From positions 1 through 45,091 of the forward strand of contig CANOFW010000026.1 in the NCBI GenBank assembly GCA_947565425.1: DNA of 45,091 bases, in the 5' to 3' direction. Of this stretch, positions 4,560-29,163 are shown piece by piece; position 1 is the stretch's first letter, and every line of letters starts with the position of its first letter. This stretch comes from an uncultured Lachnospiraceae bacterium. Its GTDB lineage: Bacteria > Bacillota > Clostridia > Lachnospirales > Lachnospiraceae. The position numbers and the translations under genes are program-made. A model generated the notes under the pieces. That model was not told where the DNA came from. It ran no database searches and saw only the letters and a list, made by a program, of their open reading frames with translations.

Positions 4560-4716
4560 GGAAGGCAACTGCGAAGCATAGGAGGAAGGCAAATGCGCAG
4601 CATTTCTTAAATGCTTTCCGACGAACTGGCAGGTGGCGCAAAGCGGCGCGTGCCGCTACCCGAGAGAAATGCCTTCCTCCGAATTGGCAGGTGCCGCGAA
4701 GCGGTGCGTGGCGATA
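4560..4716. repeat. Nested direct and inverted repeat cluster before spoVAD
   Basis: Two 20-base units (4560-4579 and 4583-4602) match at 18 positions with a 23-base period. Two longer units beginning AAATGCYTTCC and continuing through GAAYTGGCAGG to about GTGSCG repeat about 57 bases apart (near 4609-4656 and 4667-4713). GGAGGAAGGCA (4581-4591) and TGCCTTCCTCC (4670-4680) form a perfect 11-bp inverted repeat around a perfect AGCATTT-CTT-AAATGCT hairpin (4599-4615). It resembles a REP- or MITE-like cluster. The 19-base core recurs at the end of spoVAC. Confidence 0.7.
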
Positions 4717-14639: not shown

Positions 14640-14648
14640 AAAATAAAC

Positions 14649-14705
14649 ATACAAGCCAGGGGTGGCAGATTGCAAAATTTCCCCCCTGGTTTTTTGTATG
14701 TTTTT
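14649..14705 (+). terminator. Terminator of the hisA-dapL operon
   Basis: CATACAA and CCAGGGG on the left pair with CCCCTGG and TTGTATG on the right. The stem is long, with a loop of about 20 bases, and TTTTT follows. Confidence 0.88.
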
Positions 14706-14746
14706 ACTGAAAAATCGTTTTGCCACTTATCATTTTAGTAAATAGC

Positions 14747-14775
14747 TTGAAAAATTTACTAAAGAAATTTAAAAT
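14747..14775 (+). promoter_or_regulatory. Candidate promoter of the arabinogalactan operon
   Basis: TTGAAA (14747-14752), a 17-base spacer and TAAAAT (14770-14775) lie in an AT-rich stretch, leaving a leader of about 130 bases. I see no clear catabolite-control (cre) site near it. Confidence 0.5.
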
Positions 14776-14915: not shown

Positions 14916-17900
14916 ATGAAAGGATTGAAAAAAGGTATCAGCGCTGTCCTGGCAGCGGCTCTTGTTTTGACGGCATTGCCGGCAGATGGTTTAAGTCAGG
15001 CGAGAGCAGCGGGCAAAGCAAGAGATGCGGTAGTTGCCGATGCGACAGTCAAAGTACTCCCTGACAAAGCCTCGCCATTCAATGACACGAATGGAGATGG
15101 ATTAGGGGAGTTTGAGGGATGGGGTACCTCCCTTTGCTGGTGGGCGAACCGCTTAGGCTACGACGCCACAATGACACAGAAAGCGGCAACGGCTTTCTTT
15201 GACAAAGAAGCCGGGCTGGGCTTAAACATCGGCCGCTACAATGTGGGCGGCGGCGATAACACAGGCGAGATTACGGAAGTTCCTGCTAATCCCAAGGCTC
15301 AGGTCTTTGGCGTAGAGAAACAGGAAGGCGTCCTGGATTATGCAGGAACAAGCATGAAGGTAACGAAAGGCGAGAGTCGGTTTGAAACAGTGTCATACAG
15401 TGTTTCCGATGCAGACTTCGGTTATACAAAGGGCAAGCCAGTCGGCAAAATTGACTATGTAGGATATGTGAAACAATTAGATGGAAATGTGGGAAGCGGA
15501 GATAATTTGCATTATACAGTAAACGTAGAGAACGCAGCAGATTATACGGTAAAGATGATTCTGTACCACAATGCAAATTCAGACAGGGATGTAGTGATCC
15601 GTGTCAATGGAGAGACAGAGTTTGTTGTCTCCAACCAGGAGCTTCAGGCCAATAAAATAGCCTCTACCAGTACGCACGCATTATTTCAGGCAAATATTCG
15701 CAATGTGGCGCTGAAAGCGGGCGCCAATACGATTGAAGTTGCAGGAAAGGCGGGCTGGACCCTGGACTTTGTAAAAATGCTGGTGGTAAAGTCTGACGAG
15801 GAGGGCGTATTGCAGGAAGAGGATCCATTCCTGCATCCGTCGCACATCAAACGTTCCGATTCCGATATGCCGGGTTATTGGAAAGATGTGACGAAGATTC
15901 AGATCACCGAGGATAAACCTATCTCCTGGTGGGAAGCAAACTATACAAGAGTAGATGAAGAATGCGGTTATGCATGGAATTATGATTGGAACAAAGACGC
16001 CAATCAGAGGAATATCCTCACTGCGGCAAAGGCGGCAAGCAAAGATGAATTTATTGCGGAGGCATTTTCCAATTCCCCGCCCTATTTTATGACGAACAGC
16101 GGTTGTACCTCAGGAGCTACAGATTCTAGTAAGGACAATTTGCGCAAGGATTCTTACAATGCGTTTGCGGCATATATGGCGGATGTGATTGAGCATTATG
16201 CCGAGGCTGGCATCGTCAATTTCACGAGCGCGACGCCGATGAATGAGCCTTATACGAATTACTGGGGCGCAAACAGCGCGAAGCAGGAAGGATGCCATTT
16301 TGATCAGGGTGAATCAGAATCTACGATCATTGTTGCTTTCAAGAAAGAGCTGGCAAAGAAGGCAGCGGCGGCAACGAATGAGAATGTAAAGAATGTTTTG
16401 AACAATATCATTCTTTCCGGTACGGATGAGACGAGTATTGATACGGCGATTGATTCTTATAACGCGTTATCGAATGAAGCGAAAAATGCGATTGCAAGGA
16501 TTGACACCCATACATATAGCGGTTCTAAACGTGCAGAGCTGTCGGCATTAGCGCAGAAAGAAAAGAAAAATTTGTGGATGTCTGAGATTGACGGCGCCTC
16601 AAGAGCCGGCACAGACGCCGGAGAGATGGCAGCCGGGTTGGGATTTGCCCAGAGGATTATCACCGACGTCAATGGTTTGAAATGTTCTGCCTGGATTATG
16701 TGGAACGCCGTTGACCTCAATGTGGACGCCAACAATGAATTTGACGCGGATTCCATCGAAGACTTAAAAAGCATGACAAATGATAGCGGTGAAATCATGT
16801 TTGACCCGGAGAATAAAGGCTGGTGGGGAATCGCGATCGGTGATCATAACAATAAAGAACTTGTGCTCACAAGGAAATATTATGCATATGGGCAGTTCTC
16901 CAAATATATCCGCCCAGGATATACGATTATGGGAACCAGCGACAATGCCAATACCCTGGTAGCTTACGATTCCGTCGGCAAGAAGGCTGTCATTGTGGCG
17001 GTCAACACAGCGGGAACGGATAAGACTTGGAAATTTGATTTAAGCAGATTTGAGACAATGGGCGATCAGATTACGGCAAACCGTACCAGCGGCGCGTCGG
17101 AAGGCGGCGAGAACTGGGCGGATGTATCATCGTCTGTAAATGTTGCTGCCGATACGGCGAACAGAGCGTTTACGGCTACTGTTAAAGCAAATTCGATCAC
17201 CACTTTTGTGGTAGACGGCGTGGAATTTGATAAAGAGAAAGACGACGAGCGCACAAAGCGTGAGGAAAACTTAAAGAAGATGCAGACGGAAGTTATGAGC
17301 GCTCTGGATGTAAGTAACTTGGATCTGGAAAACCTCAACATTCCGCTGACTACCGACATGGTAAGCGGTAGCGCGCCGTGGAACAATGGAACGGTAAATA
17401 CTGTCGATAAAGTAATAGACAATGATTATCGAACCTTCTTTGACGGCGTGTCAAACGGTTATGTGCAGATTGATTTAGGCGAGGCAAAAGCAATTGCAGC
17501 TTATGGCTATGCGCCGCGGTATGACGGCAGCGATAAACAGTATCTCGGCAGGTGCGTAGGCGCGTCTTTCTATGGCTCTAATGACGGAAGTACTTGGGAA
17601 TTGCTGCATACGATTACCAAGACGCCGGAAGCTGACAAGATTACCTGCGCTTATATCAATGAGTTTACTTCTATGTCCGTGATGGGCAAGCCCTACCGCT
17701 ATTATAAATATGCGGTAGGAGATACGGGCAATTGTAACATTTCAGAGTTGAGGATTTATGAGAAGCCGGAGAGCCTTACGGTTCCGGAAATGCCTGATAC
17801 TTTGGAAAAATGGGTTGCACACTGTGAAGAAAAAGTAAAAGGACACAGATATACTCCCCAAACAAAAACTGCATACGAGAATGCGCTTGCAGCGGCGAAA

Positions 17901-20900
17901 GCATTAAATGCTTCCCAGGATGAGAAGGCAAGGGAAGACGCACAGTATGCGTTGTTTGACGCTTATCTGAACTTAAAGGAAATCTATAATTATGAAACAT
18001 TCTCCGGCGTGAACGGCGATGCGATTTACGATAACAGCGGAGAGCTTATACAGGCGCATGGCGGCCAGGTACAGAAAATTCAATACGATTATGATTTTGA
18101 CGAAAACGGACAGATCGATGCGGATGAGCACGAATTTTGGTACTGGATTGGCGAGGATAAGACGAATGACTACCGTCCATGTCCCGGCGTTCATGTATAC
18201 ATTTCCAAAGACCTGCTCAATTGGAAGGATATGGGATGCGTACTTCGGACCGTTGATAACTGGGAGACATTTACCACGGATAAGTATTTTACCGATTTGT
18301 ATAGTGATTTGACACAAGAGCAGAAAAGAGCGGTTTATGCCGATATCTGGACCGCTGACGGCGCCAGCGATTCCGGGTGCGTGATTGAGCGGCCGAAAAT
18401 GATTTACAACGACAAGACGAAACAGTATGTGATTTGGTTCCATGCAGATGGACAGACGCCGGACAGCAGCGGCGGCAACTATGCCAAGGCGAAGGCGGGC
18501 GTGGCAGTTTCCAGCAGCCCGTTCGGACCGTTTAAGATGCAGGGTTCTTACTTGTTGAATTATGTCGAAAGTTTAGATCATGGTTTTGATGACGGAGGCA
18601 GTCTGGGCCATGTACGTGACATGAATGTGTTTAAGGATGACGACGGAACAGGATATATTATTTATTCCTCCGATGGAAACGCCAACATGTACATTGCGAA
18701 AATGAACGATTCTTATACGAATATTGCCAAGACGAATGACGAGGGAGCAGTCCAGGGCATAGACTTTTCCGTTAATTTTGTCGGAAGTTCCAGAGAAGCT
18801 CCGGCGATGTTCAAGTACAAGAACAAATATTATCTGATTACCTCTGGCTGTACTGGCTGGTCGCCGAATACGGCGCAGTACGCAGTGGCGGATCATCCGT
18901 TAGGGCCCTGGAAGGTTATGGGAGATCCCTGTATCGGAGAGGACGCGAATACCACGTTCTTTACCCAGAGTACGTGTGTGATTCCGGTAGACGCTCAAAA
19001 AGGCAGATTTATCTATATGGGCGACCGTTGGTATAATCCCGAGATTTCCGTGGGACCTGGGGCGGGCGGCAGTCTGCGCAATTCCAGATATGTATGGCTG
19101 CCCATTGAGTTTGCCGGTGACGGTACGATTGCACTGAGACGATACAGCGACTGGGATATGAGCGTATTTGACAGCATAGAGCCGTACGAACTGGTAACCA
19201 AACTGCCGGAACTGGTAAAATCTGCGGCAGAATTAGAGACGGCATTGCCGGGTAAGGTTACGGTTCAGTTTGCTTCAGAGGAGGCGCAGACAGAAGCGTC
19301 TGTTACCTGGGATACAGAAAGTTTTCCAGCAGATAAGAGCTTAGGGGAAGTAACCGTCTCGGGAACGATGGAATATACCAAAGGCGGCAAAGAATATACG
19401 CGGACAATCAGCCACAAAGTAACGTTGCTGGACACAAAACTGATTTATTTCTTTGACTGTGCGTCAGAGGATTCTGCATACCATGATTTGCTCAGCCTTG
19501 AATTGGCAGATAAGCTGCGTAACGAGGAGCCGGACAGAGAATATTCGGTAGAAAATCTTGCCGGATTTGCCGGAAAAAATGGCGGCGAGGGAATCGGCAG
19601 CAACGATACAGACTATGACGTCGGCGTGAAGTCTGAAGGCAGCAATATGTGGCAGCAGGGCTATTGGGCGACAAAAGGCAGCAGTATCGATTATGCATTT
19701 ATTTTAGAGGCAGGAACTTATACCGCAGCCACCGGATATCATGAATGGTGGAGCGGCGACAGGAAGACGAAGATTAATGTAATCTCCAACGGCAAGACGA
19801 TCGCTTCTTCGGAAGAGTTTGCCGTGGCAGGAAACAAGAGCCTGCAAAAGAACCTGCAATTTACAATTGAAGAGAATGCTAAGGTTACAGTGAGCATTAC
19901 CGGAAACGGCGCGGACCCGATTTTGAGCTGGATAGCGCTTTTCCAGGATCAAAAGACAGGCGAGTTCGGCAGTACAGATACCGAAGAACTCAAAGGGCTT
20001 ATCACGACTGCCGACAGTATGGAAAGAGGCAACTATACCGAGGCAAGCTGGGAGAAGTTCCAGGATGCATTGGAGAATGCAAAGTATGTTCAGAAATATG
20101 TACTTTCTACTGAAAAAGAAATTGAAGCGGCTACAGCGGAGCTGAGAGACGCTATGAATGCGCTGCAAACGCCCAAACAGTATTTGCAGGCGTCCATTGA
20201 CAAGATTGCGATTTCAGAATCAAATGCGGACAATTATGAGAAAGACGCTATGTGGGCGTACTATCAGGAAGTTCTGGCGAATGCACAGACGCTCCTGACA
20301 AAAGAAGATTTGACCGAAAAAGAGGCGGAAGAAGCGCTCAAAGATCTGCGCGACACCATCGACTTGTTGACGCCGAAAAAGACTACGCCGCCGACACCTC
20401 CAACGCAAACGGAAAAGAAAGACCAGGTAATCTCTGTCAAGTCCAAAGTGACGAAGGCTTATGGCGATAAAGCGTTCAGCCTGGGCGCAAAGGTTAAAGT
20501 CGGTAATGGCAAGTTGTCTTACAAGAGCACGAACAAAGCAGTTGCAGACTACAATGCCAAGACTGGTAAAATAACCATTAAGGGCGTTGGCGTCTGTATT
20601 ATCACGGTAACTGCGTCAGAGACGACAACTTATAAGGCAAAGACGGCGAAAGTGACCGTGAAGGTGAACCCGAAGAAAGCCAAAGTAAAGGCGGTGAAAC
20701 CGGGCAAAAAGAATTTGAAAGTAACCTGGGCGAAAGATGCGAAGGCAACCGGATACGAGGTACAGTGCTGTCTGAAGAAGAACTTTAAATCTGGCGTTAA
20801 GAAAGCGACGGTCAAGAAAGCAAAGATTACGTCTACGACCTTTAAAAAACTGAAAAAAGGTAAGAAATATTACGTGCGCGTCCGTGCATACAAGAATGTA

Positions 20901-20972
20901 AAAGTAAACGGCAAAACGACGAAGCTTACCGGCGCATGGAGTAAGGTAGCAGTGAGCAAAAAGGTAAAATAA
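14916..20972 (+). CDS. Secreted GH30/GH43 fusion, predicted arabinogalactan galactanase
   Basis: This is a 2018-residue exported enzyme. In order: signal peptide (1-32); GH30 barrel from about 50, holding GWGTSLCWWANRLGY, acid/base Glu444 (PMNEPY) and nucleophile Glu557 (LWMSEIDG); a beta-rich module of about 180 residues (116-300) inserted inside the barrel; CBM32-like F5/8C domain (about 806-948); helical FIVAR-like segment; GH43 domain (about 1030-1430) with QAHGG, Asp1235 (RDMNVF) and Glu1294 (REAPAMF); Ig-like domain; beta-sandwich (1508-1680); two FIVAR segments; Ig-like domain; lysine-rich Fn3 (1922-2018). The GH30 resembles subfamily 5 endo-beta-1,6-galactanases and the GH43 resembles subfamily 24 exo-beta-1,3-galactanases. 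Together they would degrade side chains and backbone of type II arabinogalactan. No LPXTG motif is present. Subfamilies are inferred by motif memory. Confidence 0.85.
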   Translation: MKGLKKGISAVLAAALVLTALPADGLSQARAAGKARDAVVADATVKVLPDKASPFNDTNGDGLGEFEGWGTSLCWWANRLGYDATMTQKAATAFFDKEAGLGLNIGRYNVGGGDNTGEITEVPANPKAQVFGVEKQEGVLDYAGTSMKVTKGESRFETVSYSVSDADFGYTKGKPVGKIDYVGYVKQLDGNVGSGDNLHYTVNVENAADYTVKMILYHNANSDRDVVIRVNGETEFVVSNQELQANKIASTSTHALFQANIRNVALKAGANTIEVAGKAGWTLDFVKMLVVKSDEEGVLQEEDPFLHPSHIKRSDSDMPGYWKDVTKIQITEDKPISWWEANYTRVDEECGYAWNYDWNKDANQRNILTAAKAASKDEFIAEAFSNSPPYFMTNSGCTSGATDSSKDNLRKDSYNAFAAYMADVIEHYAEAGIVNFTSATPMNEPYTNYWGANSAKQEGCHFDQGESESTIIVAFKKELAKKAAAATNENVKNVLNNIILSGTDETSIDTAIDSYNALSNEAKNAIARIDTHTYSGSKRAELSALAQKEKKNLWMSEIDGASRAGTDAGEMAAGLGFAQRIITDVNGLKCSAWIMWNAVDLNVDANNEFDADSIEDLKSMTNDSGEIMFDPENKGWWGIAIGDHNNKELVLTRKYYAYGQFSKYIRPGYTIMGTSDNANTLVAYDSVGKKAVIVAVNTAGTDKTWKFDLSRFETMGDQITANRTSGASEGGENWADVSSSVNVAADTANRAFTATVKANSITTFVVDGVEFDKEKDDERTKREENLKKMQTEVMSALDVSNLDLENLNIPLTTDMVSGSAPWNNGTVNTVDKVIDNDYRTFFDGVSNGYVQIDLGEAKAIAAYGYAPRYDGSDKQYLGRCVGASFYGSNDGSTWELLHTITKTPEADKITCAYINEFTSMSVMGKPYRYYKYAVGDTGNCNISELRIYEKPESLTVPEMPDTLEKWVAHCEEKVKGHRYTPQTKTAYENALAAAKALNASQDEKAREDAQYALFDAYLNLKEIYNYETFSGVNGDAIYDNSGELIQAHGGQVQKIQYDYDFDENGQIDADEHEFWYWIGEDKTNDYRPCPGVHVYISKDLLNWKDMGCVLRTVDNWETFTTDKYFTDLYSDLTQEQKRAVYADIWTADGASDSGCVIERPKMIYNDKTKQYVIWFHADGQTPDSSGGNYAKAKAGVAVSSSPFGPFKMQGSYLLNYVESLDHGFDDGGSLGHVRDMNVFKDDDGTGYIIYSSDGNANMYIAKMNDSYTNIAKTNDEGAVQGIDFSVNFVGSSREAPAMFKYKNKYYLITSGCTGWSPNTAQYAVADHPLGPWKVMGDPCIGEDANTTFFTQSTCVIPVDAQKGRFIYMGDRWYNPEISVGPGAGGSLRNSRYVWLPIEFAGDGTIALRRYSDWDMSVFDSIEPYELVTKLPELVKSAAELETALPGKVTVQFASEEAQTEASVTWDTESFPADKSLGEVTVSGTMEYTKGGKEYTRTISHKVTLLDTKLIYFFDCASEDSAYHDLLSLELADKLRNEEPDREYSVENLAGFAGKNGGEGIGSNDTDYDVGVKSEGSNMWQQGYWATKGSSIDYAFILEAGTYTAATGYHEWWSGDRKTKINVISNGKTIASSEEFAVAGNKSLQKNLQFTIEENAKVTVSITGNGADPILSWIALFQDQKTGEFGSTDTEELKGLITTADSMERGNYTEASWEKFQDALENAKYVQKYVLSTEKEIEAATAELRDAMNALQTPKQYLQASIDKIAISESNADNYEKDAMWAYYQEVLANAQTLLTKEDLTEKEAEEALKDLRDTIDLLTPKKTTPPTPPTQTEKKDQVISVKSKVTKAYGDKAFSLGAKVKVGNGKLSYKSTNKAVADYNAKTGKITIKGVGVCIITVTASETTTYKAKTAKVTVKVNPKKAKVKAVKPGKKNLKVTWAKDAKATGYEVQCCLKKNFKSGVKKATVKKAKITSTTFKKLKKGKKYYVRVRAYKNVKVNGKTTKLTGAWSKVAVSKKVK

Positions 20973-20988
20973 ATAAATGGAGGCAGAT

Positions 20989-23900
20989 ATGGGGAAAAGA
21001 ACATGGAAGTCTGGAATCTCCCTGTTTCTGACAGCAGCGCTTGCCATGACCAGTTTTGGCATGGCAAGCCCGCTGACAGCGGATGCAGCAAAAGACAGTG
21101 CAAAGGCAGCGTTGGAGGGAGAAATAAATCTGACGGCGGATGGCGATGCTGCAACGGGAGACAACAGTACATATTATATTGACGCGGTAAACGGAAACGA
21201 CAGCAACGACGGAAAGTCGGAGGCTAAGGCATGGAAATCTCTGCAAAAGGCGGCTTCTCTGAAACTCGGCGCGGGCGGCAAAGTGCTGTTAAAAGCCGGA
21301 TGTACCTGGAACGATCAGAAGCTGATGGTCAGGGAGGCAAGAGGTACGGCGGAGAACCCGGTTGTTATCGGCAAATACGGCGACGGCAAGAATCCCATCA
21401 TCAACGGCAACGGAAGCAATTGGCTTGATAATATGGACAGAAGCGCTTTGAATAAAGAGGATGTTGCAGCCGTGCATATTCAGAACTCTGAGTACATCAT
21501 CATAGAAAATCTCGAAGTGACAAACTGGGAGAGCGACAAGGCAGATCTGGAAGGAAAGCTGGGCAAGACAAACTCTAACAGTGACAGTCCGGGACGAAAG
21601 ATTCTCTTCGACCAGAGTAAATATATGCTGACGGGAATTCTCGTGGAGAACCGTGACGCCGGAGAACTCAAAGGCGTTACGATTCGCAACAACTACGTGC
21701 ATGACGTCAACGGTTATATGTCGACGAATGGCTCCGAGGGACACAAGAAAGGTTCTGGCGGAATTATGGTTCTCGTAACCGGTGGAGCGACGGAGTCTTA
21801 TTTCAAGGATTTGCAGATTCAAGGAAATGAAGTGAATAAGGTTTGTCATGAGGCCATCTATATGGAAAGCTGCTGGGCGGCGCGTACATTAGTCGGTGGC
21901 GCAGGCAGTCAGCAGGCAGGAAGCAAGCCATGGGTTGGCTGGCCGAATGTCCATGTAGAGAATAACTATGTGCATGATGTGGCAGGAGACGGTATTGTCT
22001 TAATCAATGCTGACGGCGGCGTGGCAGAGAATAACTTAGTGGTAAAGGCTGCCAGCGAGGATTGGTATTACTCCAGAAATCCGGCGCATGCGGCAATCTG
22101 GGCATGGGACAGCAACAATGTAACATTCCAGAACAATGAGGCGGCTTACACTGAGAGCACACAGGACGGTATGGCCTTCGATTCCGATTATGGCAATCAG
22201 AACATTTTATTCCAGTATAATTACAGCCACAATAACAAGGGTGGTTTCTGGATGGCATGTCCGGGACCTTATTATTCCATCAACTCTGTGGTCCGCTACA
22301 ATGTCAGTGTTAATGATGGCGGTTATGACGGTTCCCGTATTCTCTGGGTAGGAGAATCCGGAAGTATCGGCCATCAGGTGTATAACAATACGATGTATTG
22401 GGACGATAGCTATAAGAACATTCAAGCAGTGAAACAGGGTGCGTGGATATCTGGGAACGCAACAGCTCAGACGAGCGGGACCGATATTTACAATAACATT
22501 TTCTATGGAGATAGCCAGGAGTTTGTCAATCATGAAGGCGTGCATTATGACAATAACTGTGTCTGGGGCGGCGCCGAGAAAGCATATCCCTGGGAAGAGG
22601 ATAAGACCGGTATCGCGGCAGACCCAGGTCTCAAGGATTTGACGGCGGCAGGACATTCTGACGGAACCTTTGCCAATGGTACGGTTACGCTCGGTTCCAC
22701 AGCCGGCATGGAGCTGACGTCATCCTCACCGTGTATTGACGCCGGAAAAGCGTATATGGCAGTGCCAAATGAGTCTTTCGATGCGGTGGCAAATGAGAAG
22801 CTTCCCAATGATAAGACCCAGATTACACTGGAAAATAAAGATTACAAAGGCAATGTCGTTCCTTATGCGGCGGGAAAAGCGGATATAGGAGCGTTCGAGT
22901 TCCAGGGCGCTTATGCGGGCGCTTATGAAGCGCCAGAGGAAGATAAGGCATGGTTACAGGAGATGGTAACCCTGGCAAAAGGCGTTGACAAAACAAAATT
23001 TGAAGCGTTCAGCGTACAAGAGCTGGAGCAGACAGTAGCGAATGCAGAGACGGCATTACAGAGCAAACCAATTCAGGTAAGTGCGATGGTGCCAAGGCTT
23101 GAGTATGTGCTCATGAACATGGTGCGGGCAGGAGAAGGCGGAGCAGGAACAGAGAAAGACAATCTGCTCACAACAGAACAGTCTGGATTTGAGAGTGGCA
23201 CAAGCGGTTGGGGCCATTGGCCGGACGCAGTATCGGTGACGGCGTCCAATGAACAAAAGCGTACGGGCAGCCAGAGTTTGAAAATAGCTTATGAGAATGC
23301 AGCGAATGACACGGCATTTTCCGAGCTGGGCGGTATTTCCGTAGAGCCCAATACCAATTACGTCTTTGAGGCGTGGGTGTATTGCAGCAATGCCAGTGAC
23401 ACTGCTAAAGTAGGCGCGGAGGCAAAGCATCATAATAGCGTTACTGGCGGACAGGGCGATATTAAGTTGGCAAATGCTGCGGCAACCGAAGAACAAGACC
23501 CAGCGCATCCCGGCTGGTATAAGTTATCGCTGGCCTTTACTACCAAAGGGTACAATACGATTAGTATTGCGTTCAGCAGTAATATCCAAACAGTTTATGC
23601 CGATGATGCGGTGCTCTATCCGGCACAGAAAACAGCTACGAAATTGAACAGAACCAATTTAGAGAAGGCGCTGGCATTAGAACCGGAGTACGCACAGGCC
23701 GATTATCCGACGGCATTGTGGGATGCTTATCAGGAGGCGTATGCTTCAGCCAAAGTTGCACGTGTGAATCCGGCGTTAGAGCAAAAAGACATTGATGCGG
23801 CAACTTCCAAGCTCAATACGGCATACCGCAATCTAGCGAAGAAAGCAGAAAAAACCGGGCTTTTGCGCGCTTATTATACAACCCATGCTACGAAAAAGAA

Positions 23901-24633
23901 AGATGACTATACGGAAGCTAGCTGGGATCGTTTTGAGAAAGCATTGCAGGCGGCAAAAGCAGTATTAGATCAGGGAGATCAAGCTACGCAGACGGCAGTG
24001 GATAAAGCATTGTCTGACTTGAAGACAGCAGTAAACAGATTGGAAGAAAAGGAGCCGGTTGTAAATCCTCCGGCAGCCAAGAAAAACCAGACGATCAGTG
24101 TGAAATCTGCTATCACGAAAGCATATGGTGATAAAGCGTTCAGCCTGGGCGCAAAGGTAACCGTGGGCAATGGTAAGCTTTCTTATAAGAGTTCCGATTC
24201 CAAAGTGGCAGTCGCAGATAATAACGGTAAGATAACCATTAAGGGAATTGGAAAATGCGTGATCACAGTAACAGCGTCAGGGACTACCACGTATAACGCT
24301 AAGACGGCGAAAGTGACTGTGACAGTCAATCCGGGGAAAGCAGTTGTAAAGAAGCTGACGCCCGGAAAGAAGACTTTGAAAGTGAGCTGGGCAAAGGATG
24401 CGAAGGCCACCGGCTATGAGGTTCAGTGCTGCTTAAAGAAGAATTTCAAATCAGGCGTCAAGAAAGCAACGATCAAGAAAGCAAAGACCACCACAACTAC
24501 ATTTAAGAAGCTCAAGAATGGCAAAAAGTATTATGTGCGTGTTCGTGCCTACAAGACAGTCAAAGTAAACGGCAAGTCGATAAAACTTAACGGTGCATGG
24601 AGCAATGTTAAACTAAGTAAAAAAGTTAAGTAA
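20989..24633 (+). CDS. Secreted parallel beta-helix protein, probable polysaccharide-active enzyme
   Basis: This is a 1214-residue exported protein. I start it at ATG 20989, because GGAGG at 20979-20983 is its ribosome site and the in-frame ATG at 20977 overlaps that site. After a signal peptide (to about residue 33) comes a right-handed parallel beta-helix (about 60-650) opening with YYIDAVNGNDSNDGKSEAKA and full of NNYVHDV- and NNIFYGD-type turns. Then come a helical piece, a CBM4/9-like domain (about 715-880, FESGTSGWGHW), two FIVAR-like segments, an Ig-like domain and the lysine-rich Fn3 shared with its neighbours. Beta-helix folds occur in lyases and several GH families, so the reaction is unknown; its neighbours suggest an arabinogalactan decoration. 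The gap to the preceding gene is 16 bases. Confidence 0.8.
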   Translation: MGKRTWKSGISLFLTAALAMTSFGMASPLTADAAKDSAKAALEGEINLTADGDAATGDNSTYYIDAVNGNDSNDGKSEAKAWKSLQKAASLKLGAGGKVLLKAGCTWNDQKLMVREARGTAENPVVIGKYGDGKNPIINGNGSNWLDNMDRSALNKEDVAAVHIQNSEYIIIENLEVTNWESDKADLEGKLGKTNSNSDSPGRKILFDQSKYMLTGILVENRDAGELKGVTIRNNYVHDVNGYMSTNGSEGHKKGSGGIMVLVTGGATESYFKDLQIQGNEVNKVCHEAIYMESCWAARTLVGGAGSQQAGSKPWVGWPNVHVENNYVHDVAGDGIVLINADGGVAENNLVVKAASEDWYYSRNPAHAAIWAWDSNNVTFQNNEAAYTESTQDGMAFDSDYGNQNILFQYNYSHNNKGGFWMACPGPYYSINSVVRYNVSVNDGGYDGSRILWVGESGSIGHQVYNNTMYWDDSYKNIQAVKQGAWISGNATAQTSGTDIYNNIFYGDSQEFVNHEGVHYDNNCVWGGAEKAYPWEEDKTGIAADPGLKDLTAAGHSDGTFANGTVTLGSTAGMELTSSSPCIDAGKAYMAVPNESFDAVANEKLPNDKTQITLENKDYKGNVVPYAAGKADIGAFEFQGAYAGAYEAPEEDKAWLQEMVTLAKGVDKTKFEAFSVQELEQTVANAETALQSKPIQVSAMVPRLEYVLMNMVRAGEGGAGTEKDNLLTTEQSGFESGTSGWGHWPDAVSVTASNEQKRTGSQSLKIAYENAANDTAFSELGGISVEPNTNYVFEAWVYCSNASDTAKVGAEAKHHNSVTGGQGDIKLANAAATEEQDPAHPGWYKLSLAFTTKGYNTISIAFSSNIQTVYADDAVLYPAQKTATKLNRTNLEKALALEPEYAQADYPTALWDAYQEAYASAKVARVNPALEQKDIDAATSKLNTAYRNLAKKAEKTGLLRAYYTTHATKKKDDYTEASWDRFEKALQAAKAVLDQGDQATQTAVDKALSDLKTAVNRLEEKEPVVNPPAAKKNQTISVKSAITKAYGDKAFSLGAKVTVGNGKLSYKSSDSKVAVADNNGKITIKGIGKCVITVTASGTTTYNAKTAKVTVTVNPGKAVVKKLTPGKKTLKVSWAKDAKATGYEVQCCLKKNFKSGVKKATIKKAKTTTTTFKKLKNGKKYYVRVRAYKTVKVNGKSIKLNGAWSNVKLSKKVK

Positions 24634-24680
24634 GGAGCGGACAATTAACATATGTTCGGGAGAGAAAAGGAGATGAGAGA

Positions 24681-27600
24681 GTGAGAGGATGGAAGAAAGG
24701 CATCAGCGCTGCGCTTGCAGCAGCGCTGATTGTAACGGCATTACCGGCAGATGGAGTTCATCAGGTAAATGCGGCAGAAAGGGCCGCGGTCGATGCAACC
24801 GTAGAGATGATTCCCGGCAAAGCATCCACATTCAATGATACGAACTTGGACGGGCTCGGCGAGTTCCAGGGCTGGGGCACTTCCCTGTGCTGGTGGGCAA
24901 ACCGCCTGGGCTACAGTGAGAAATTGACGAGCGAGGCGGCGGCGAAATTCTATAGCGACGACGGATTGGATATGAATATTGGACGTTATAATGTGGGCGG
25001 CGGCGACAATGTAGTTGGCGGCGAGTATGCGGAGGAGAATGAATTTCTCCATGACGCGCACATTGAGCGTTCCGATTCAGCGGTTCCCGGATATTGTCAG
25101 GATGTAACTAAGATGAATTTGCAGGAGCATGATCTTGCCTACTATACGGCAAATTACGACCGGGCGGATGAAACCAGCGGCTACGCGTGGAATTATAACT
25201 GGACGGCGGATAAGCGCCAGTTGGCAATTCTTAGCGCCGCCATGAGAGCAAGCGGAAAGGATTTTATTGCAGAGGCATTTTCCAATTCCCCGCCTTATTT
25301 TATGACGAACAGCGGATGCAGTTCAGGAGCAGAAGATGCAAGCAAAGATAACCTGAGGTCCGATTGCTACAAGGCGTTTGCCGCTTATATGGCGGATGTG
25401 ATTGTACATTGGGCGAAAGAAGGGCTGGTGGACTTCACAAGCACGACGCCGATGAACGAGCCTTATACAAGTTATTGGGGCGCGAACAGCCCCAAACAGG
25501 AAGGGTGTCATTTTGACCAGGGAAATTCCGAATCCACGATTCTTGTGGAATACAATGCGGAGCTGCAAAGACAGCTTGCCTCGACGACGGATGCGAATGT
25601 GAAGAGAGTGCTCAGCAATCTTATCATCTGCGGTACGGACGAGACCAGTATCGACACAGCGATTAGTTCTTATAATAAACTGTCGACAGATGCAAAGAAA
25701 GCCATCCAGAGGATTGATACCCATACCTATGGCGGTTCTAAACGTGCTGAATTGTGTGCTCTGGCAGAAAGAGAAGGCAAAAACTTGTGGATGTCTGAGA
25801 TAGATTTAGGCTCCAAAGCAGGGACCAATGCAGGCGAGATGGCCCCGGCGCTGGCGTTTGCGCAGAGGATTATCACAGATTTGAACGAACTGAAAGCTTC
25901 TGCATGGATTATGTGGAACGCCATCGACATTCATGTAGACAGAAACAGTACTTCCCGATACGACGCTAAAGAAAGCCTGGAAGAATTGAAGAGCATGACG
26001 TACGATGACGGTACCGTCATGTATGATCCTGCAAAAGCAGGCTATTGGGGCATTGCGATTGCCGACCATAATAACGAGGGAATCATCCTCACAAAGAAGT
26101 ATTATGCGTACGGACAGTTCTCAAGATATATTCGTCCAGGTTATACCATTATGGGTACCAGTGATGAGGCAAATACATTGATTGCCTATGATCCTCAAGG
26201 GAAGAAAACGGTGATCGTGGCTGTCAATACCTCAGATTCCTCAAAGACCTGGGAGTTTGACCTTAGCAAGTTTGATTCTATGGGAACATCGGTAAAGGCG
26301 TACCGTACCAGCGGCGTGCTCGATGGCGGAGAGAATTGGCAAGACGTAACCGCGGAGGCGTCTATCGTTGCAGATACGGTCAACCGACAGCTTCAAGTCG
26401 GTTTAGCGGCAAATTCCATCACCACATTTATTGTTGAGGGAACGGAATATAATGTAGAACAGAATTATGAGATACCGGAGAAAGCCATCGCAAACCAAAT
26501 TTTGCCTGGAATCTATGCAGAAAATGACGCTGTGATGGAGGCGAATAAGGGCAACGTGGAGTCAGTGGCATTAAATGAGGATATGGTTACCGGAAGCGCG
26601 CCTTGGAACAATGGCACAACGGACGTTCCGCAGAATGTGGTAGACGGTAAATTTGATACTTTCTTTGACGGCGTGGCGGACGGCTGGGTGCAGATTGACC
26701 TGGGTATGCAGGAGAATATTGCGGGCTTTGGCTATGCTCCGCGAAGCGGCTATGCAGACAGGTGTGTGGGAGCCTCCTTCTACGGCTCGATTGATGGACA
26801 GAATTGGACGAAGCTTTATACAATTTCAGACAATCCTGCGGAGAATGTTTTGACAAACGTGTATGCTTCTAAGTTTGAAGCGCCCAACAATAGTTATTAT
26901 CAGTACATTAAATATGCGGTTCCAGAAGGGGACAGCAGCGCAGGCTGCAATGTTTCTGAGATTGCAGTGTATCGTTGGAAATCGGGCGTCAATGTAATGT
27001 TTAAAGAACCGCAAACTCCCGAAGATTTGCGGGGCTGGACGGCATTTTATAAGACCCAGACAGCGGGCAATACTTATTCCAAAGAAAGCTGGGCAACTTT
27101 CCAGGCAGCATTGGCGAAAGCGGAGGCGCTGCTCAAAGACGGCAGTACGAATACAGCCGAATTGAACAAAGCGCGCCGGGCGTTGGCGATGGCTTATCTG
27201 GGACTTACGCCGGGAAGCGGGGAAGAAACACCAAAGCCGCCAGTAAAACCGGTAAAACGTAATCAGACGATTACATTTACCAAGAGTTATACCAAGGCGT
27301 ACGGTGATAAGGCGTTTAAACTGAATGCGAAAGTAAAAACCGGAGATGGCAAGCTTTCTTACAAGAGTTCTAACACAAAAGTAGCCAATTATAACAAGAA
27401 AACCGGTAAGGTGGAAGTCAAAGGCATCGGTCAATGTACGATCACGATTACGGCGTCGGAGACTGCGAACTATAACAAGAAGACGGCAAGTGTTACCATT
27501 ACTGTGAATCCCAAAAAGGCTTCCCTGGTTAAGAGTAAGTTAAAACCGGCAAAGAAGAGCCTGAAGGTGGGCTGGAAAAAAGACGCCAAGGCGGACGGAT

Positions 27601-27818
27601 ATCAAATACAGTGCTGTTTAAAGAAGAACTTTAAGTCAGGGGTTAAGAAGGTAACCGTTAAGAAAGCGAAAACTACCTCTGCAACGATTAAGAAGCTGAA
27701 AAAAGGCAAGAAGTATTATGTACGTGTCCGCGCCTATAAGAAAGTCAAAGTAAATGGGAAAACTAAGACCTTGAATGGGGCGTGGAGTAAGGTAATTCAG
27801 AGTAAAGCGATTAAGTAA
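24681..27818 (+). CDS. Secreted GH30 enzyme, predicted endo-beta-1,6-galactanase
   Basis: This is a 1045-residue exported enzyme starting at GTG 24681 after AAAGGAGAT. Its signal peptide (RGWKKGISAALAAALIVTAL) mirrors that of the first enzyme. The GH30 domain is uninterrupted: GWGTSLCWWANRLGY, NIGRYNVGGGDN, acid/base Glu260 (TPMNEPY) and nucleophile Glu373 (LWMSEID). A CBM32-like domain (about 627-770, TGSAPWNNGT), one FIVAR-like segment, an Ig-like domain and the shared lysine-rich Fn3 tail follow. It is a paralogue of the GH30 part of the first gene but lacks its inserted module and GH43 half. Endo-beta-1,6-galactanase activity on arabinogalactan side chains is inferred from subfamily-5-like motifs. 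An upstream 11-codon frame ends in the TGA that overlaps the GTG start. Confidence 0.85.
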   Translation: MRGWKKGISAALAAALIVTALPADGVHQVNAAERAAVDATVEMIPGKASTFNDTNLDGLGEFQGWGTSLCWWANRLGYSEKLTSEAAAKFYSDDGLDMNIGRYNVGGGDNVVGGEYAEENEFLHDAHIERSDSAVPGYCQDVTKMNLQEHDLAYYTANYDRADETSGYAWNYNWTADKRQLAILSAAMRASGKDFIAEAFSNSPPYFMTNSGCSSGAEDASKDNLRSDCYKAFAAYMADVIVHWAKEGLVDFTSTTPMNEPYTSYWGANSPKQEGCHFDQGNSESTILVEYNAELQRQLASTTDANVKRVLSNLIICGTDETSIDTAISSYNKLSTDAKKAIQRIDTHTYGGSKRAELCALAEREGKNLWMSEIDLGSKAGTNAGEMAPALAFAQRIITDLNELKASAWIMWNAIDIHVDRNSTSRYDAKESLEELKSMTYDDGTVMYDPAKAGYWGIAIADHNNEGIILTKKYYAYGQFSRYIRPGYTIMGTSDEANTLIAYDPQGKKTVIVAVNTSDSSKTWEFDLSKFDSMGTSVKAYRTSGVLDGGENWQDVTAEASIVADTVNRQLQVGLAANSITTFIVEGTEYNVEQNYEIPEKAIANQILPGIYAENDAVMEANKGNVESVALNEDMVTGSAPWNNGTTDVPQNVVDGKFDTFFDGVADGWVQIDLGMQENIAGFGYAPRSGYADRCVGASFYGSIDGQNWTKLYTISDNPAENVLTNVYASKFEAPNNSYYQYIKYAVPEGDSSAGCNVSEIAVYRWKSGVNVMFKEPQTPEDLRGWTAFYKTQTAGNTYSKESWATFQAALAKAEALLKDGSTNTAELNKARRALAMAYLGLTPGSGEETPKPPVKPVKRNQTITFTKSYTKAYGDKAFKLNAKVKTGDGKLSYKSSNTKVANYNKKTGKVEVKGIGQCTITITASETANYNKKTASVTITVNPKKASLVKSKLKPAKKSLKVGWKKDAKADGYQIQCCLKKNFKSGVKKVTVKKAKTTSATIKKLKKGKKYYVRVRAYKKVKVNGKTKTLNGAWSKVIQSKAIK

Positions 27819-27830
27819 GGAAGAGTCAGT

Positions 27831-28934
27831 ATGCGAAACAGGTATATGAAAAAGATCCTGTGCATGACGACCGTTTTTTGTGCCGCAGCATGGATAGGCT
27901 GCGGCACAAAAACTGTAGAGGACAGCGACACCGTCATGGAGATTGCAGGACAAAGCGTTGTGAAAGCAGAATACCAGATGATTCTTGGCGATTACGAATC
28001 AGAGGTTAAGCGGCAGTATGACACGGACACGGCAAACCGCAAAGATTTCTGGACAAGCGAGCAGAAGGGGCGGCGGCCTGTGGATGAAATTATGCAGCTT
28101 GCTGAGGAGGAGTTGGCGCAAAAAAAGACGGTTATCTGGCTTGCCGCAGATTTGGGCATAGAGGCTCAGGCGGATTATCTGACGCTTGCTGCGCAGATGG
28201 AGCGTGAAAATGACAATCGCGAGGGAGCGGATGAATCCGGAGAACTTATATATGGAATGAACGCGTTTCAGATGCGTGAGTATTACGATTATATATACAC
28301 ACAATTGGAATATGAAGTGATAGAATCGCTAAAAGAAAACGATGAAGTCTCACAAGAAGAGCTAGAGAGGATGTATCAGGAGAATCAGGAAGCTTATACG
28401 AGCGATGTGAGCGTGAAAATGCTGGTTGCCGAGGCGATTGCAGACGCAGGGAATGCGCCGTCCTCCCAGGAGGCAGATGCAAGAAATGAGCAGCCGTCCC
28501 AGGAGGAAGATGCAGGGAATGCGCAGTTATTACAGGCGGCAGAAGACATGAAAGAGCATACAGACTTGGCGTATTTTACTGAGCGATACCCATTTGTCAG
28601 CTTTTATGAACTCACGATGTCTTCGCTGAATATGCAGGAGGGAAAGAGTGGCGCTTATATGCAGCGTTGGCTGACGGCCTCCGCCATGCAGCCGGGGGAA
28701 GTGTGCGAACCTTTTGCCATCGGACAAAACCTCATGGTTATGCGCTGTCTCGAGCGCTCTGAACATGAGGTGCTGCCGTTGGAAGAGGTGAAAGGCGTGT
28801 TGAAAGATGACGTCCAGTCCAGCCGGGCGTATGAAGAGATAGAATCTCGGCAGGAAGAGGCGGAAACCAAAGTGACAGTCACGCAGGAACAGTTGGAAGA
28901 AATTGCGCTGGAAGCATTGCAAACGCCAGACTGA
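27831..28934 (+). CDS. PrsA/SurA-like lipoprotein, putative extracytoplasmic foldase
   Basis: This 367-residue protein has a lipoprotein signal; the lipobox ends AAWIGC, Cys at residue 24. After the anchor comes a SurA/PrsA-type helical chaperone region (VMEIAGQSVVKAEYQMIL, a typical SurA_N opening). A degenerate parvulin-like segment follows, including MQPGEVCEPFAIGQNLMVMRCLER, which matches the end of a rotamase domain. A Gln/Glu/Ala-rich repeat (about residues 206-232) lies between them. PrsA-type lipoproteins fold exported proteins at the outer face of the membrane. It begins 12 bases after the second GH30 gene, so a job in folding these unusually large enzymes is likely but inferred. An alternative start is ATG 27846. 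Confidence 0.75.
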   Translation: MRNRYMKKILCMTTVFCAAAWIGCGTKTVEDSDTVMEIAGQSVVKAEYQMILGDYESEVKRQYDTDTANRKDFWTSEQKGRRPVDEIMQLAEEELAQKKTVIWLAADLGIEAQADYLTLAAQMERENDNREGADESGELIYGMNAFQMREYYDYIYTQLEYEVIESLKENDEVSQEELERMYQENQEAYTSDVSVKMLVAEAIADAGNAPSSQEADARNEQPSQEEDAGNAQLLQAAEDMKEHTDLAYFTERYPFVSFYELTMSSLNMQEGKSGAYMQRWLTASAMQPGEVCEPFAIGQNLMVMRCLERSEHEVLPLEEVKGVLKDDVQSSRAYEEIESRQEEAETKVTVTQEQLEEIALEALQTPD

Positions 28935-29034: not shown

Positions 29035-29134
29035 TTTCCGCGAGCAATGAGCCAGGCAGCCGCGCTTGTGCGGATATTTGGCGAATGCCGCGAGGGTAAG
29101 TGCCCTGCGGGCGGAAAGAACAAGCTAGGTCATG

Positions 29135-29163
29135 CCCCGTAGCTTGCTACGGGGTATTTTACT
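29135..29163 (+). terminator. Second terminator hairpin before the typA 3' end
   Basis: CCCCGTAGC-TT-GCTACGGGG is a perfect 9-bp stem followed by TATTTTACTT, which overlaps the typA stop codon. The T-rich side faces plus-strand transcription. Between the two hairpins (29035-29134) is GC-rich, non-coding sequence with small hairpins. Confidence 0.75.

Follow-up and report, generated by a model that had tools for sequence, protein, structure and literature searches.

The locus considered here raises the question of which glycan is attacked by a four-gene operon that combines galactanase-type enzymes with a relative of the lacto-N-biosidases. The operon lies at positions 14916-28934 of contig CANOFW010000026.1 from an uncultured Lachnospiraceae bacterium. 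The whole stretch of 45,091 nucleotides analyzed here, referred to as the window, corresponds to contig C26 in an assembly of 3.36 Mb that is 92.9% complete. A first-pass annotation, made from the sequence alone, had read the operon as a secretion-only system for type II arabinogalactan, consisting of enzymes of GH30 subfamily 5 (GH30_5) and GH43 subfamily 24 (GH43_24). That interpretation is partly supported, being right on the target and incomplete. Genes 2 and 4 had been given no identity in it; because gene 2 is of GH136 type and gene 4 is LnbY-like, the operon is, judged by sequence, more than a GH30/GH43 pair. It is probably a galactose-regulated, surface-acting operon for type II arabinogalactan in which the GH136 enzyme has shifted to a galactan-derived substrate. 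The four genes are as follows.

14916-20972, plus strand: gene 1, 2018 amino acids (aa), a secreted two-enzyme protein with GH30_5, F5/8 and GH43_24 parts and a C-terminus of FIVAR, Ig-like and Fn3 modules.
20977-24633, plus strand: gene 2 (P0002), 1218 aa, a secreted GH136-type beta-helix protein.
24681-27818, plus strand: gene 3, 1045 aa with a GTG start, a second GH30_5 protein.
27831-28934, plus strand: gene 4, 367 aa, a lipoprotein with an LnbY/GH136I-like part at about residues 30-190 and a PPIC/parvulin domain at residues 191-313.

The likely start of gene 2 is the ATG at 20989, which gives 1214 aa. With this start, the gaps between the genes are 16, 47 and 12 bases, in agreement with the earlier coordinates. 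The Pfam domains in the operon proteins are GH43, CBM35-like, F5/8, FIVAR, Fn3, beta-helix and PPIC. The earlier description of three secreted proteins and a lipoprotein agrees with the signal-peptide-like N-termini of genes 1-3 and the lipobox-like Cys of gene 4, all judged by eye.

Pfam at E 0.01 did not detect the GH30 barrels of genes 1 and 3, which were recognized by sequence comparison with the PDB. A search of the organism's own genome with the Pfam GH30 family (PF02055) gave a match on another contig and none at the operon. In the PDB comparison, both domains are nearer to the GH30_5 structure 24td than to other GH30 structures, with E values of 4e-36 for gene 3 and 5.6e-33 for gene 1 against 1e-11 and 2.8e-10 for the next GH30 entries. 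The structure belongs to Sa16Gal30A of Streptomyces avermitilis, for which substrate-site residues have been named (PMC13431644; here and below, papers are cited for the parts of their text that were available). The seven alignable residues, N216, E217, Q229, Y294, E320, W350 and D354, are conserved in both domains, so that the catalytic Glu pair and the Gln229-type galactose recognition are retained, whereas P355 is replaced by Ile or Leu. K114 and W359 fall in unaligned stretches. Residue positions follow the chain numbering of 24td, with an offset of 20 set by hand, and those of gene 1 were obtained through its alignment to gene 3.

17976-19235, plus strand: GH43_24 domain of gene 1, matching 3vsf, 6eug, 6euf and 7bys.
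15453-15761, plus strand: CBM35-like module within the GH30 barrel of gene 1 (E 9.6e-6; 26.4 bits against a Pfam cut-off of 28).

Subsite −1 of Pc1,3Gal43A, a GH43_24 enzyme of Phanerochaete, comprises E57, E102, R103, Y126, D158, E208, W229 and Q263 (PMC7939473). All eight residues are conserved in the GH43 domain of gene 1, including the Glu acid and the Gln (not Asp) base. A CBM35 or CBM35-like module occurs in both proteins, and gene 1 differs in being fused to GH30_5 and in being far larger. By their substrate-site residues, the assignment of these domains to GH30_5 and GH43_24 is thus supported, with enzyme activity predicted. As a pair, GH30_5 and GH43_24 indicate type II arabinogalactan, the target proposed earlier, which these assignments support.

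The CBM35-like insert, a further difference from Sa16Gal30A, is confined to the gene 1 barrel; the alignment shows that gene 3 is without it. The barrels of genes 1 and 3 are paralogues. Of the loci examined, only the window and its nearest relative, an uncultured Lachnospiraceae metagenome-assembled genome (L025 = L033; 88% in the gene 2 domain), contain gene 3, which therefore looks like a recent duplicate inserted between genes 2 and 4.

21112-22929, plus strand: GH136II-like catalytic domain of gene 2, placed by alignment to ErLnb136.

The sequence of gene 2 is that of a GH136-type beta-helix protein, i.e., of the lacto-N-biosidase family, which keeps the catalytic Asp pair. The right-handed beta-helix with two catalytic Asp residues seven residues apart, the hallmark of GH136, is found, where D397 is the putative acid/base and D404 the putative nucleophile, aligning with D568 and D575 of ErLnb136. 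W377 aligns with W548 of ErLnb136. A Trp of ErLnb136 stacks on galactose (PMC7335108), and because this Trp is conserved in 24 of 24 operon-type GH136 sequences, galactose at subsite −2 is favored for the predicted enzyme. The structure alignment (A3) used 35 of 39 GH136 domain references. Gene 2 reached 132 bits against NF047897, the full-length LnbX lacto-N-biosidase equivalog model of 1498 positions, which is below the curated cut-off of 2500.

In a GH136 tree of 66 rows, 24 operon-type rows are set apart by a branch with 100/100 support, and the three characterized enzymes in the tree, LnbX, TnX and ErLnb136, lie within another 100/100 group of 17. The tree was calculated without RhLnb136, RiLea/b136 and BsaX; its deeper order is weakly supported and several outside rows are long-branched. 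The 40 comparison rows came from a context-blind search of 392 genomes of the order, from which 32 stretches were taken from the stronger matches (matches spanned 41 genomes), from seven further genome stretches, and from L032; one of the seven, L142, proved to be an operon-type row. Among the matches listed for the 392 genomes, only the own genome stood at the operon-type score level. Several positions are fixed differently between the operon-type and lacto-N-biosidase clades, e.g., E292/W458, N344/Y508, D378/K549 and F401/W572.

With profiles built from few sequences, at E 1e-5 and in stretches of up to 20 kb, GH43_24 was found in 21 of the 24 operon-type rows (12 adjacent and 9 fused) and GH30_5 in 17. 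The rows with no GH43_24 in the locus are L024 and L055, where contigs end, and Blautia parvula. The 40 other rows gave no GH30_5 and a single GH43_24-like match, in a 306-aa open reading frame (ORF) on the opposite strand about 5.5 kb away (L125). The core unit of GH30_5-GH43_24, GH136 and LnbY-like genes recurs within the Lachnospiraceae. A gene 2-like catalytic GH136 gene is present in at least 10 of 28 congeners, and the GH30_5-GH43_24 gene lies upstream of it in nine of the ten; for the tenth (G007), the contig breaks off at this point, and a GH43_24 gene is found on another contig with a half-site pair, described below, nearby. GH43_24 at 55% identity or more occurs in the own genome, in all ten operon-bearing congeners and in 1 of 18 other congeners. 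A scan of named genomes gave 23 loci, of which 10 are contigs of the operon-bearing congeners and 13 were taken into the further GH136 genome search. In a divergent group (45-48% identity), GH136 and GH43_24 share one ORF in eight of nine cases, the ninth being cut by a contig end, and the same holds for L046 (57% identity). In L049 and in Eubacterium ramulus ATCC 29099 (L051), GH30_5, GH43_24 and GH136 are all encoded by a single ORF of 3006 and 2913 aa, respectively.

Because GH136 has repeatedly been fused to galactanases and forms a separate clade, a galactan-derived substrate is likelier than lacto-N-biose. It is accordingly quite improbable that genes 2 and 4 encode a conventional extracellular lacto-N-biosidase that acts on glycans of milk or mucin and only by chance sits in one operon with enzymes for arabinogalactan. 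The family match, the conserved catalytic residues and a GH112 gene in the genome agree with such an enzyme; the separation from the three characterized lacto-N-biosidases in the tree, the differently fixed positions and the nine fusions disagree with it, as does the fact that E. ramulus already has a separate ErLnb136. That strain carries three GH136-type genes (L051, L138, L139): a 663-aa ORF matching ErLnb136, a protein of 1350 aa resembling LnbX, and the 2913-aa arabinogalactan-type fusion. The B. parvula member of the clade (L043/L142) bears CBM4_9-type modules, and several deep GH136 lineages beyond the characterized lacto-N-biosidases are present in the order (L106-L144), many of which adjoin an LnbY-like gene.

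The same linkage to GH43_24 and GH30_5 would also suit a GH136 part that removes another cap or side-chain disaccharide of arabinogalactan-proteins, such as one bearing arabinose or glucuronate, instead of galactobiose. The clade-specific residues are compatible with various sugars at subsite −1. Considering the fully conserved galactose-stacking Trp, this variant is rather unlikely.

Gene 4 resembles LnbY, the partner of a GH136 enzyme, as far as its sequence can tell. Its best NCBIfam match is LnbY (NF047894). The LnbY-like profile matches downstream in 22 of the 24 operon-type loci, where L026 (a contig end) and L046 (not a contig end) are the exceptions, and it also picks up LnbY-like genes adjoining other GH136 lineages. 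The corresponding alignment (A4) covered 29 of 46 LnbY-like references. The gene 4 profile gave no credible match to PDB sequences (best E 0.032). ErLnb136 was not among the 50 fold matches listed for gene 4, which is no proof of absence. It is unlikely that gene 4 is instead a general PrsA-like foldase for large secreted proteins and no GH136 subunit, in view of the LnbY match and the recurrence beside GH136 genes. In favor of a foldase are the SurA/PrsA-type fold, the PPIC domain, a match to PRK00059, and the weak direct match to ErLnb136I (E 0.074).

Besides this fold and this weak match, the following points count against the proposed reading of the operon. Gene 4 scored 39 bits against the LnbY model, whose cut-off is 400, and the L046 locus has no LnbY-like gene. 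In the fold comparison (VIA), the ErLnb136 chains stood at 25.5, not above unrelated beta-helices. The NCBIfam match of gene 3 is to a GH30 xylanase model, covering the C-terminal sandwich only, at 56 bits against a cut-off of 650. B. parvula carries an operon-type GH136 with no GH30_5 or GH43_24 in the locus and a GH43_24 elsewhere in its genome. GH112 (LNB/GNB phosphorylase) is present in the own genome, in all ten congeners with the operon and in 14 of the remaining 18; these cells may therefore use lacto-N-biose as well. A galactose-responsive regulator would equally fit the use of lacto-N-biose, and no half-site pair was found upstream of the E. ramulus locus. To our knowledge, no enzyme of the operon-type GH136 clade has a tested activity. 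Co-occurrence with GH112 was set aside as a discriminator, being found in 36 of 42 genomes.

The regulation of the operon is suggested by its promoter region.

14734-14763, no strand assigned: paired half-sites TTTAGTAAA-N12-TTTACTAAA, overlapping a putative −35 element (TTGAAA at 14747).
14747-14775, plus strand: promoter-like site TTGAAA-17-TAAAAT, a consensus match only.

The dyad was first noticed in the promoter, before it was traced through the genomes. One match to the pattern TTTAGTAAAN{9,15}TTACTAAA is present in the own assembly and one in each of 6 of the 10 operon-bearing congeners (control, 0). The pattern was also found in 2 of 18 operon-less congeners, at three sites, where a reversed control matches one genome. 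Two of these three sites were examined; in each case, a divergent LacI-family gene stands on one side and galK-galT on the other. The own genome (L189) has the same LacI-type/galK/galT arrangement, with identities of 81%, 76% and 87%, respectively; there, TTTAGTAAATTTACTAAA precedes the LacI-type regulator gene and a half-site pair precedes galK. The regulator is called GalR here by inference from its galK/galT neighbors; no published link between GalR and TTTACTAAA was found in the open-access literature.

The own assembly has four pairs of TTTASTAAA at a spacing of 0-15 (control, 0), located at galK, the regulator, the operon and one other place. In 11 operon genomes there are 41 such pairs (control, 1), which were sorted by hand into 23 at galK or the regulator, 10 before operon gene 1 and 8 elsewhere. 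Two of G016 and one of G021 were assigned to galK/regulator by sequence likeness or contig position and not by genes, and the G007 pair was placed before gene 1 by estimate. Upstream of the operon, G021 has two half-sites, of which one is exact and the other differs at one position. The 10 loci of the genus with gene 1 have 3-4 half-sites (at most one mismatch) within 400 bases upstream, where shuffled sequences have a mean of 0.26. These counts, and the sites at galK and beside the LacI-type gene, suggest that within the genus the operon has an operator in common with the galactose regulator. This may not extend outside the genus, where one half-site was found in L041, two in L044, and one imperfect half-site each in E. 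ramulus (L051) and L049.

The fourth pair of the own genome (C50:5569; L220 4070) has similar sites in G011, G016 and G004. The genes on either side of it in L220 and L221 are divergent and encode large secreted proteins, possible further members of the galactose regulon; one, scanned in L220, has LamG and a weak GH32-type match, and the N-terminal part of the other has no family. At L222 7277 (G016 C42), a second GH43_24 protein of 2256 aa, whose domain is 56% identical, adjoins a half-site pair and a LacI-type paralogue. A half-site pair at L223 3852 (G001 C96) stands at the start of a gene, presumably for L-arabinose isomerase, and may be due to chance.

The first-pass annotation had stated that no transporter or regulator adjoins the operon. 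A family scan of 20 further ORFs of the window (3 without a family) revealed neither a sugar-specific transporter nor a regulator of sugar use; the recognized families include a MATE exporter, an EamA transporter, an ECF-type sigma factor and an ANTAR protein. That statement stands for sugar-specific functions among the scanned ORFs, but the half-site pair in the promoter is shared with galK and the LacI-type gene. Because the locus appears to be tied to a regulator in this manner, the earlier idea of a secretion-only locus feeding others is overstated. A public-good locus of this kind, feeding other species, is quite improbable: the lack of a recognized sugar transporter among the scanned ORFs speaks for it, and the half-site pair that galK of this genome also has, as well as the lipoprotein and the basic C-termini, which suggest retention, speak against it.

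The operon is bounded by two terminator-like hairpins, as had been claimed.

14648-14706, plus strand: upstream terminator-like hairpin with a T-rich tail, after the aminotransferase gene (fold z-score −5.1; 0 of 200 shuffles as stable).
29132-29157, plus strand: downstream terminator-like hairpin, from the terminator scan.

The upstream hairpin is absent from the list of the simple terminator scan. In the region, simple scans found 15 terminator-like sites where 17.3 are expected and 21 promoter-like sites where 22.8 are expected. Since neither is in excess, the calls flanking the operon rest on position and stability. The flanking genes are housekeeping genes, an aminotransferase on one side and BipA on the other. 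Farther out, 9 kb downstream, the window contains a gene of the glycogen-phosphorylase type. Rfam at the gathering threshold gave no match at the operon; a GA-cis RNA (RF02987, 39.7 bits) was found at 4577-4664 of the window, upstream of SpoVAD.

These results suggest the following course of degradation. The GH30_5 domains would cleave the beta-1,6-galactan side chains, and the GH43_24 domain would degrade the beta-1,3-galactan backbone from its end, passing the side chains. On the same polymer, a two-part GH136 enzyme would act, with gene 2 as the catalytic beta-helix and the gene 4 lipoprotein needed for folding or activity. It would most likely be an exo-enzyme with a retaining mechanism, and its product a disaccharide ending in galactose, with galactobiose replacing lacto-N-biose. 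The C-terminal 180-188 residues of the gene 1-3 proteins resemble one another and are strongly basic, with a pI of 10.4 and 42-50 Lys, and no LPXTG motif was found in them. These lysine-rich C-termini and the lipid anchor of gene 4 may keep the four proteins attached to the cell surface. After import, galactose or galactobiose would be metabolized through the Leloir pathway, whose galK appears to have the operator in common with the operon.

The first-pass annotation knew of no described Gram-positive operon with this composition. The arabinogalactan-protein cluster of Bifidobacterium longum, with BLLJ_1840 (GH43_24) and BLLJ_1841 (GH30_5) (PMC10850190), qualifies this and is the closest Gram-positive precedent. 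Both are from Gram-positive gut bacteria and combine GH43_24 and GH30_5 in one cluster; in the operon described here, one protein combines the two, and a GH136/LnbY-like pair accompanies them. The B. longum GH30_5 enzyme is called an exo-beta-1,6-galactobiohydrolase, and the available part of that paper contains no mention of a GH136 in the cluster or of a GH30_5/GH43_24/GH136 fusion. With a GH43_22 arabinofuranosidase, the GH30_5 and GH43_24 enzymes of B. longum yield beta-1,6-galactobiose (PMC11186840). The LnbX/LnbY and ErLnb136 systems (PMC7335108) share with genes 2 and 4 the beta-helix fold, the catalytic Asp pair, the galactose-stacking Trp and, with gene 4 as the candidate, a partner in the same locus. 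Gene 2 differs from them in its separate deep clade and its link to galactanases, and gene 4, of 367 aa with PPIC, differs from the 253-aa LnbY-like neighbor of the E. ramulus LnbX-like gene. A paper on enrichment with acacia gum was considered as support and discarded, because E. ramulus is only background in its available part.

A more specific proposal is that a GH136 subfamily has moved from milk or mucin sugars to type II arabinogalactan as an LnbY-assisted exo-galactobiosidase, joined with GH30_5 and GH43_24 in a single polypeptide in some species and regulated by galactose in the genus of the window. This proposal is, in our view, about as likely as not. Neither an exo-galactobiosidase activity recorded for GH136 nor, in the open-access literature, a description of GH136 acting on arabinogalactan was found in the available parts of the papers.

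The combination of GH136, GH112, an ABC transporter and a regulator has been used as a signature of human-milk-sugar use in gut Clostridia (PMC7335108). If the proposal is true, a plant-glycan branch of GH136, found in E. ramulus beside a true lacto-N-biosidase, would alter this annotation. It would also offer a new enzyme activity open to testing, a degrader of arabinogalactan in a single protein, and an example of a partner-dependent fold that has been redeployed. The analysis suggests that the GH136 enzyme of the operon represents an unrecognized plant-fiber branch of a family whose characterized members digest human-milk-type sugars.

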